From Owenia fusiformis (lineage: Eukaryota > Annelida > Polychaeta > Sabellida > Oweniidae), in NCBI GenBank assembly GCA_903813345.2, contig CAIIXF020000011.1, positions 10,822,842 through 10,886,841 on the forward strand: a DNA stretch of 64,000 bases. Direction: 5' to 3'. Shown here piece after piece: positions 36,481 to 39,998 of this stretch. Position 1 is the first letter of the stretch, and every line of letters starts with the position of its first letter. The notes beneath the pieces are model-generated. The model did no database searches, was not told the DNA's origin, and was given only the letters and a program-made list of their open reading frames with translations. A program made the translations under genes and the position numbers.

Positions 36481-37164
36481 TCACAGACGAGACCCTATCT
36501 GTTGCGAGACTTATGCCTGGCACAACCGTCACCATGGTGTTAAGTGTTTTTAAGTTTCACAAGGATCCTGCCATGACTTTGGTAGTGTTATCATGAAAGC
36601 CTGGTATAACCGTGGCAATGCTATATTACATGTATACTGCAAGGCCTGTCATGACCGTGGTGATGTTAAAGCCTGATATGACCGTGACATTGTTATATTA
36701 TATTGCAAGGCCTGTCATGACCGTGGTAATGTTAAAGCCTGATATAACCGTGACAATGGTTCCAAGGCCTATCATGACCGTGGTTATGTTAAAGCACAAT
36801 ATGACCGTGACAATGGTTATATCAAATTACATTTAGTAGCAATAATTGAGAATACTGTAATGAAAAATTTCTACCTTAAATATGTAAATCTAGATGACTA
36901 CTACTACTACTTTAACTCATAATTCATTTCCACAAACTGTAATTCTAATCTTATTCAAGAACATGAACATTGTCACTGTCATATAAGGCTTTAACATTAC
37001 CACGTCATGACAGGCCTAACAGCCATTGCCACAGTCATATAAGACTTTAAAATTACCACAGTCATGATAGGCCTTACAGCAATTGCCACAGTCATATAAG
37101 ACTTTAACATTACCACGGTCATGATAGGCCTTGCAATATAATATAGCACTGTCACGGTCATATC

Positions 37165-38020
37165 TAACCAAACCCGTCTGGCCCAGTTATCTACTCTAGA
37201 TATCGTAGATCTGGGCCAGACTCGATCCAATGCAAAAAATGGGGTATTTACTCCGGAAAAAACACACTGGTTTTTCAATGTATAATACGTGCTGATAAAT
37301 GAATAAACATCATAAAAATCACTTACGTGTTTGTTCCTTGTATCAAACTTTGTATTTATATTAGGTTTCCATTGCTGGATGACAGCTAATAAATAAGAAC
37401 GAAACGTCTAAACGCAGCAAAAAGAATCTGCAATCTGTTCGTGATCTCGTAGAATATTGAGAAGTCTCGGCTGCTTATTTCGTTCCGTACTACATTCCGT
37501 CAGTTCAACAAATTGAAAAATCGTATTTAATGTCCACCATATTTCTTTCCAGTTTAAATACAACACAGACACGTCTGTTTTATAAAGTAATCTATGTTTT
37601 GATAACAAATCTGCTGAACAAATCGTAATATTTGGAATGTATTGATTCCCGGGAAATGTATTTTCGTTCCATGAAAGTTTAAAAATTATCGCGTCACACT
37701 TGTGTTACGTAACATCAAGTGACTTTATTCGGTGCGGAGAACTGACGAAATATTGACGAAATGTTGCGCCCATTTCAACATCAATATAACAAACAAAACA
37801 CCACATTTACGCGTAAGTTATGTTCTCTTTATTTCAAATAAATACTTGGGTTTACATGGTACCCGATATTTTGGTTGGATGGTTAATAGGGAATGAATAA
37901 TAAGTGATGATTCAGCGACATGTTTTTTCTGGAGTAAATCCCCCCTTTTTAGCATTGGACCTTGTCTGGCCGAGACCTACGACATCAGGAGTAGATAACT
38001 GGGCCAGACGGGTTTGGTTA
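37165..38020. mobile_element. Insertion M1: 856 bp, 9-bp TSD, hairpin ends
   Basis: The element begins TAACCAAACCCGTCTGGCCC and ends with the complement. The inverted repeats are about 105 bp. GGTCATATC is duplicated on both sides (37156-37164 and 38021-38029). Each end carries an internal 46-base hairpin 11 bases from the tip (37176-37221 and 37964-38009) with stems GTCTGGCC...GGCCAGAC. There is no transposase. A 9-bp duplication is characteristic of Mutator-like families, which would make this a non-autonomous member, but the ends were not matched to a known family. Confidence 0.8.
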
Positions 38021-38094
38021 GGTCATATCAGGCTTTAACATTAACAGGTCATGACAGGCCTTGAAATATAATATAGCATTGTCACGGTTATACC

Positions 38095-38944
38095 TAGTTC
38101 AACGTCGTTAAACTCAATAACGGCGTTCTTTACTATTAGGAATTTTCTTGGGGCCGTTATTGAGTTTAACCTCTTTAATATTCTTTCCTTTGATGCAAGT
38201 TCGAGATCCATCGAAACCATTTTGCCGCGATAACATGCAATTGATACTTGACAATAATATAAAAACACATAACATCAATCGATTTAACACAATATTATTG
38301 TGTTAAATGTTCATTTATACGAGTAAAATGAGGCTACACTTACCGATCTCTAAAATGACATTTCCGCATGTCCGTCATTGTGTCTGTTCGTCCGAGGGTC
38401 CCGGATCGTAAAATTGAACTACTAGCGAAACGAAATTGTTGTCAAATAGATTGATAATTATTATCGCGATTACTCGCATTAAAAGATAAATTTTGAGGAT
38501 AACAGGTATCTTTGATTGATTTATATAGCGCGTGTATACACGCAAAATAGTTATTTATTGCAAACCTACTGTTTGTAAATGCAGTGCCGCGATGACGGTT
38601 AATTTCAGATATGATTTGCAATTTCGATGTTACTGAAACTGACCAACATTTTCGTTATATTCCAAACCTGTCTCCAATATTTTCGTAATTATGCATCAAT
38701 AGGGTCTAAGGAGGATACAGGATGGTGTGTATGTATTCATAAGGTATGTATGCATGCTTGAATCACATTCTTTGTGTAATATTACCATGTTTTCAGAGTT
38801 TAATTAGTTCCGCTTGTCGGAACCAGCGGAATGATTAATTAACACATCAAGGGCAAAATGATCATGGAGGTTAGACCTAGCCGGGGCCATAAGACATGTC
38901 AGATAAGAAACGAGGCCCAGGCTAGGTCTAATGTTGTTGGACTA
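38095..38944. mobile_element. Insertion M2: 850 bp, 9-bp TSD, hairpin ends
   Basis: The element runs from TAGTTCAAC to GTTGGACTA, with GGTTATACC duplicated at 38086-38094 and 38945-38953. Twelve bases in from the left tip is a perfect 18-bp stem (GTTAAACTCAATAACGGC, 38107-38170). Thirteen bases in from the right tip is an 18-bp stem of unrelated sequence (TTAGACCTAGCC, 38871-38931). No coding region was recognised. Size, layout and duplication length match M1, though the sequences differ. Confidence 0.8.
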
Positions 38945-39072
38945 GGTTATACCAGGCTTTCACGATAACAATACCACGGTCATAGCAAGATCCTTGCGAA
39001 ACTTAAAAACACTTTATAACATGGTGACGGTTGTGTCAGACATAAGTCTTGCAATAGATAGCATGTGTCACA

Positions 39073-39998
39073 GACTGAAATATCTCTGTAAAAAAAATTA
39101 ATTCGAGCTTCACATTGCACAAGCTGCACAAGCTTATATCATCCCGAAAAATCTGCATTTCTGAATCATTATCGTATAAAAATATGAGATACGATCAGTA
39201 TCAAATCTGTTTAATGCTAATAAGAGAAACCTTACTTACGTTTACAGCAGCCAAGACGATGTTTATCGACCGCAATATTATTTCGCAAAAGTTTACATTG
39301 GATTCAAACTGTCATGACAAACCCCATATGAACAAAATAAACATAAACAATAAATTATGTTAGATCTCATCCACATTTGAAAATAAGATATTAAATAAAT
39401 GCAATGATTCTAATTTTGTATGATTAAAATTATTTCACAAAATAAAAATTATTTACAGTGGACTAATTTATATAAATAAATGTAAATATGAAGTAAGTAT
39501 ATGCTTGTCAGAGCACCTTGACATACTCTCAAAACCCTGTACATTTAGTTTGATTTTCATTGATTATATTGAACGTATATTAAAATGTTACTTATATATA
39601 AAGATTGATTTATAAACCCAATTAATTCAATTGAATATAAATGAATGATGAAGTGCTACAAATACCATACGTAACCCATTTTATGTTGTGTGGCAAAATG
39701 GCTTACGAAAACAATTTTGTCAACATCTTTGGAACTTTTACCGCTGTTCTAGCTCTGAATTTCATATTTTTTGCTAAAATACAAAGTATGGAGTAATCAA
39801 GGGTATGTAGATAAATGTATTATTATACGTTAGGTTATAATGAACGACCAATCGTTACTTTATTCTTACTTCCGGTTAAAATGTAAAACCAGAAGTTCTG
39901 ACCAAAAGTTGAAAAACTATTGCCTGGAAATATTTCTTTTTTTAGTAGTCTAGATCTAGCCTAATTCCATACTGACAGCTCACAGGAACTTGTAGCAC
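39073..39998. other. No recognised gene; region upstream of IBTK
   Basis: AT-rich sequence up to the palindrome at 39999. It should include promoter or 5' UTR sequence of IBTK, but I see no clear TATA, initiator or upstream exon. Confidence 0.4.

Follow-up and report, generated by a model that had tools for sequence, protein, structure and literature searches.

The analysed stretch of the Owenia fusiformis genome, 64,000 nucleotides long and here called the window, raises the question of why two repeats without common sequence stand at equivalent positions of a third repeat. This third repeat, O, is a foldback-type inverted-repeat element located on the + strand at 36489..39067, with internal repeat units of about 57-66 bp. 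Its ends are GAGACCCTATC... and, as reverse complement, CACATGCTATC..., and it is flanked by the two copies of an 8-bp target duplication, TCACAGAC, at 36481..36488 and 39068..39075 (both +). The right arm of O contains two non-autonomous elements, both on the + strand. M1 (856 bp, 37165..38020) carries terminal inverted repeats of 100 bp with 88% identity (37165-37264 / 37921-38020) and lies between copies of the duplication GGTCATATC at 37156..37164 and 38021..38029 (+), while M2 (850 bp, 38095..38944) has the imperfect ends TAGTTCAACGTCG / TAGTCCAACAACA and subterminal hairpins at 38107-38170 and 38871-38931, and lies between copies of GGTTATACC at 38086..38094 and 38945..38953 (+). Both duplications are perfect over 9 bp.

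The arms of O are inverted repeats of each other (I1 85% and I2 88% complementary), and the left arm carries the corresponding 9-bp words uncut on the - strand: GGTATAACC at 36603..36611, the counterpart of the M2 site, and GATATGACC at 36675..36683, the counterpart of the M1 site, with scores of 7.24 and 7.26 under the target matrix described below. Two additional uncut equivalents were found in the same arm, GATATAACC at 36741..36749 (-, score 7.5) and AATATGACC at 36798..36806 (-, score 8.81). These coordinates bear out the original prediction that M1 and M2 sit between 9-bp duplications in the right arm and that the matching left-arm sites are uninterrupted. Its claim of equal spacing held for the left arm, where the sites are 72 bases apart, but not for the right arm, where the distance is 65 (38021 to 38086) and not 'about 74'. 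In L079, a related O copy in which both right-arm words are uninterrupted, the words are spaced by 66 in either arm. Comparison of M1 with M2 revealed no significant similarity, only chance-level pieces (best E 0.31), as had been predicted. Between 35500 and 35610 of the window, a 36-base unit containing CAGGGTGTTTCATAA stands three times in tandem; this array may begin before 35500, where the search started.

A search of the genome (498 Mb) was used to collect further copies, and the best 40 of 326 M1 and the best 40 of 956 M2 first-look candidates were scored. All long matches listed were cut at their ends, giving 81 copies including the two of the window; 12 copies without one end were excluded (the first copy in L003, L013, L023, L027, L036, L038, L062, L066, L074 and L076-L078), which left 69 full-length copies, 35 of M1 and 34 of M2. 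Duplications of 9 bp with no more than one mismatch were present in 31/35 M1 and 30/34 M2 copies, that is in 61/69, in agreement with the predicted duplication length, and three further full-length M2 copies showed a 10-bp duplication. L003 carries an M1 pair arranged head to tail with 4 bases in between. Four of the 69 full-length copies are located in O (window M1, window M2, L018 and L072), so that 57 good 9-bp duplications outside O remained, and 56 once L034, which occupies the same site as L035, was removed for the motif set.

The duplications outside O were distinct in 28/29 cases for M1, the single repetition being one duplicated locus, and in 28/28 cases for M2. It had been proposed that both elements recognise one fixed target word, GGTYATAYC, and this is refuted because the duplications outside O vary: the word fits 0/57 of the usable duplications outside O on either strand, and inspection by eye did not reveal it among the 17 duplications of later M1-end loci. 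A strictly site-selective family recognising this 9-bp word is therefore hardly credible, even though four of the seven complete insertions in O that are listed below have exactly GGTCATATC or GGTTATACC.

Alignment of the sites outside O revealed instead a weak palindrome around the duplication, approximately KCWN-[R N7 Y]-NWGM, alike in M1 and M2 and strongest at C(-3) and G(+3). C(-3) was found at 15/29 and G(+3) at 17/29 of the M1 sites, and at 22/28 and 21/28 of the M2 sites, respectively. The symmetrised logo of the 56 sites showed G/T at -4 in 77%, C at -3 in 66%, A/T at -2 in 90% and a purine as first duplicated base in 66%. The selectivity thus resides mostly in the bases outside the duplication, and the motif is a degenerate palindrome. 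What had been taken for a new site-selective kind of element turns out to have a target preference of a form usual for DNA transposons (as described in PMC3276498).

The motif could be transferred from one family to the other. The matrix built from 28 M1 sites distinguished 28 M2 sites from 4704 positions in their neighbourhood with an AUC of 0.947, and in the reverse test the M2-trained matrix recovered the M1 sites with an AUC of 0.899. On a held-out set of 16 further M1-ended insertions the AUC was 0.956, while for 500 null matrices, trained on displaced positions, the mean was 0.49 and the maximum 0.874, none of the 500 reaching 0.956. L144 was left out of the held-out set since its site is also that of the training copies L034/L035, and the later M1-end loci L128, L133 and L141 showed no clean duplication. 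Scores were weak at 4 of the 17 later sites, L131, L136, L138 and L139, where, of about 170-180 positions, 55, 16, 20 and 23, respectively, scored better. The M1/M2 matrix does not recognise transposon insertion sites in general in this genome, since the insertion sites of O itself (15 sites, some possibly belonging to a single composite present in either orientation) gave an AUC of 0.50. The sharing of the motif is measured; a relationship of M1 and M2 as families we infer.

The context TGTCAC-GGTYATAYC-AGGCTTT occurs roughly once in each repeat unit of O. Two 28-base word contexts matched 905 (the O outer context) and 1116 places of the genome with at most three mismatches, and reversed control contexts gave 0 genome matches at the same threshold. 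When the matrix was trained without any O insertion, the M2 word ranked 1st among the 783 positions of L079 and the M1 word 4th under the combined matrix, 5th-6th under the M2 matrix and only 15th under the M1 matrix itself. The share of remaining window positions that score as well was 0.07% for the window M1 site and 0.007% for the window M2 site, and 0.002% for L018. Across five O copies the words make up 0.9% of positions and receive about 48% of the insertions predicted by the matrix. O is struck repeatedly at the words most likely because its units carry the motif preferred by M1 and M2.

Seven complete insertions in O were identified. Six of them occupy the same unit position: window M1 (GGTCATATC), window M2 (GGTTATACC), the M1 copy of L018 (GGCATAAGC) and the M2 copies of L072 (GGTCATATC), L119 (GGTTATACC) and L147 (GATATGACA); the M2 copy of L120 (GCTTTAACA) lies elsewhere in O. 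The presence of GGCATAAGC and GATATGACA at the word position also speaks against recognition of one fixed word. The one-ended insertions L074, L121 and L148 were excluded from this count, L074 and L121 being apparently off the word. By position alone, two insertions at one repeat position are far from chance, and 6/7 has a P of about 3e-12. This fraction is biased upward, because L119, L120 and L147 came from queries containing a word junction; in the lists made without junction queries, 4/4 complete insertions in O were at the word, two of them being those of the window.

Measured against the share of 48% predicted by the matrix, 6/7 has a P of about 0.05, and the motif may not wholly explain the pile-up at the O words. 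Some additional attraction of O, by open chromatin, by its foldback structure or by a higher survival of copies that insert into such a harmless repeat, would account for this slight excess and for the frequency of full-length copies in O (4/69, or 2/67 without the window) when O makes up about 0.1% of the genome, a hand estimate and a lower bound. However, the window was picked for its two insertions, the numbers are tiny, the genome share of O is a rough guess, and matrices with independent columns may understate strong sites; we consider such attraction possible but doubtful. The further proposal that O serves, beyond what the motif predicts, as a dispersed landing platform or safe haven for two unrelated families with one integration enzyme appears improbable.

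We then asked whether the insertions in O might descend from one another. If one old insertion per family had spread together with its O unit, the coincidence would be a single event, and O is indeed abundant, with some copies seemingly amplified as composites (L093, L097-L106). In addition, M2 occupies one and the same O position in the window and in L119, and the left O flanks of the two agree at 95.0% of 40 aligned bases. On the other hand, the right flanks agree at 86.1% of 101 bases, less than the two M2 copies themselves (92.9%). Since the two sides disagree, the flanks alone would not decide on independence, and the relatives of the M2 copies do so. When a panel of 41 M2 and 39 M1 copies was compared, the nearest relatives proved to lie outside O for every one of the seven copies in O (7/7). 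Window M2 was 96.8% identical to L041, a copy outside O, and its identity to the other four M2 copies in O compared did not exceed 93.6%; its best relative in O ranked only 37th of 40. The M2 copy of L119 was 98.0% identical to L070/L071, both outside O. The best relative in O ranked 6th for L072, 7th for L119, 11th for L120 and 10th for L147, and for M1 16th for the window copy and 21st for L018.

The relationships within this panel show the window M1 and M2 insertions to be, as far as sequence relatives can tell, independent events, and copying of one old insertion along with its O unit, which the original prediction had named as its own rival, is very improbable. Its core, that two separate elements had chosen one target, stands in so far as the families and the events are separate and the choice of site is real, and falls with respect to GGTYATAYC as the target word. 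Placement of the inserts by local gene conversion or template switching between the arms of O, which as inverted repeats could exchange sequence, can practically be set aside, given that the ends of M1 and M2 are intact, that their 9-bp duplications are perfect and that the same structure recurs at dozens of unrelated loci.

Concerning the nature of the elements, M1 and M2 are likely non-autonomous Mutator-like elements, judging from their structure. Both fit this group by their 9-bp duplications and inverted ends, the target duplications of Mutator-like elements (MULEs) being given as 8-11 bp in PMC6446971. The end criterion is weaker for M2, whose ends are short and imperfect, than for M1, whose ends are long (100 bp, 88%). 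The outermost bases of M1 and M2 are loosely alike (TAACCAAACC and TAGTYCAACR). The MULE transposase profile PF10551 had eight matches in the genome, and M1 or M2 sequence was absent from the five of these loci that were fetched (L122-L126). Neither these five of eight loci nor the larger M1-ended elements yielded an element that combines a transposase with M1 or M2 ends. In the latter (L127, L128, L129 and L145) M1 ends stand 1.7-2.1 kb apart around other sequence, with no stop-to-stop frame longer than 116 aa. Six open-frame fragments from M1, M2, L127 and L129 gave no Pfam hit with an E value of 1 or below. Further M1 ends were observed between the outer M1 ends of L129.

The MULE transposase loci L122-L125 have open frames of 420-617 aa, and their inverted ends match in several registers, like tandem repeats. 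A FLYWCH domain was detected in two of the three MULE loci scanned (L123 and L124), L123 having also a sub-threshold PHD match, and L123 and L124 are both flanked by 9-bp duplications. These two loci are reminiscent of Rehavkus as described in PMC6446971, with a MULE transposase, 9-bp duplications, repeat-filled ends and, in L123, the sub-threshold PHD match. These Rehavkus-like loci contain no M1 or M2 sequence.

O is probably a different kind of element from M1 and M2. Among the O loci with both ends, 24/27 showed an 8-bp duplication with at most one mismatch, about half of them being copies of one composite. Foldback elements of the P superfamily (Galileo-like) have long, repeat-filled inverted ends and a duplication of 7-8 bp. 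O resembles them in its structural features, namely the 8-bp duplication and the arms built of tandem units, and differs from M1, M2 and the MULE loci L123 and L124 in having an 8-bp instead of a 9-bp duplication, a length that still fits some MULEs. Nesting of these elements goes both ways, since an O copy (bases 150-952 of L079) sits in an M2-like element with the 8-bp duplication CTCGTTTT/CTTGTTTT. What seem by eye to be O copies within O, with the duplication TTTTTATG, were noted in L083, L093, L097-L102, L104-L106, L113 and L114, and such an O-in-O composite was seen, its flanks included, at many places, as if it had been amplified as a unit.

We favour, with a probability of roughly 85%, the reading that M1 and M2 hit matching places of O through a weak palindromic preference shared by the same or related transposases, probably Mutator-like. 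M1 and M2 would be two short cut-and-paste DNA transposon families without a recognisable gene, mobilised by one transposase or by closely related ones, and both the single or related enzyme and its superfamily are what we infer. The enzyme would cut its target with a 9-base stagger and prefer the two-fold symmetric motif, which reaches 3-4 bases past the stagger. O, presumably an older foldback repeat, would supply this motif about once per unit and thus about two thousand good sites, and the window would hold one O copy that was struck twice. Against this reading weigh the lack of M1 or M2 sequence at the five transposase loci fetched and of any Pfam hit for the six fragments, the loose agreement of the ends, the rank of the M1 word under the M1 matrix, the four weakly scoring later sites, the P of about 0.05 for the pile-up and the position of L120 elsewhere in O. 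The coincidence in the window is real and recurs independently, and on this reading it is an ordinary transposon target preference combined with a repeat carrying good sites, seen unusually clearly.

Comparison with known systems indicated both likenesses and differences. In PMC3276498, palindromic target motifs are described as the rule for the Drosophila elements with terminal inverted repeats studied there (among them P element, hobo and hopper); these motifs extend beyond the duplication by up to 3 bp, and families of one clade have them in common. M1 and M2 are like these DNA transposons in having a two-fold symmetric motif that extends past the duplication and is common to families, and also in that the middle of a duplication of odd length is where the motif is weakest (PMC3276498). 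Unlike the Drosophila elements, M1 and M2 have their strongest bases outside the duplication, and none of the Drosophila families in the table rows considered has a 9-bp duplication (PMC3276498). For maize Mu the insertion consensus is SW::SWNNNNNWS::WS (PMC2774946). M1 and M2 share with Mu the 9-bp duplication and a weak symmetric motif across its edge, and Mu, as proposed for M1 and M2, has several non-autonomous families depending on one enzyme; the positions differ, with C/G at -3/+3 and A/T at -2/+2 in M1 and M2 and a strong base at -2 and a weak one at -1 in Mu (PMC2774946).

The animal MULEs Muta1 (PMC5225508) and Tm1 (PMC3169594) resemble M1 and M2 in their duplications of 8-10 bp, inverted-repeat ends and many non-autonomous copies; in contrast to M1 and M2, they are reported to have little preference for a target sequence, or none that is clear. 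MuTAnT and SaTar are plant MULEs that land in microsatellites (PMC4486113, PMC5907723). Like M1 and M2, they are non-autonomous and accumulate in a particular kind of repeat that may serve as a safe haven, but their target is a simple repeat that holds most copies of most families (PMC4486113, PMC5907723), whereas only 4/69 full-length M1 and M2 copies lie in O, a dispersed element. A non-exhaustive literature search by titles and abstract openings revealed no published description of M1, M2 or O.

The most useful result is the motif common to two unrelated families, which points to a common transposase of M1 and M2 despite their unrelated sequences. With it, an explicit target motif is available for elements that make 9-bp duplications, where the Muta1 and Tm1 reports give no clear preference (PMC5225508, PMC3169594). 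Such a motif can be derived from old copies in the genome and checked on held-out data, and it can explain a coincidence that resembles strict site specificity.

Elements of only 75-87 bp, consisting of two M1 ends back to back and nothing else, were also observed. Six such end pairs were fetched; the sixth, L141 (94 bp), was without a 9-bp duplication, and the other five, L136-L140, had perfect 9-bp duplications and are located at G000 C1:2566400, C3:19029290, C3:20016130, C5:26728250 and C5:33630460. About 40 bp of an M1 end may suffice for mobilisation.
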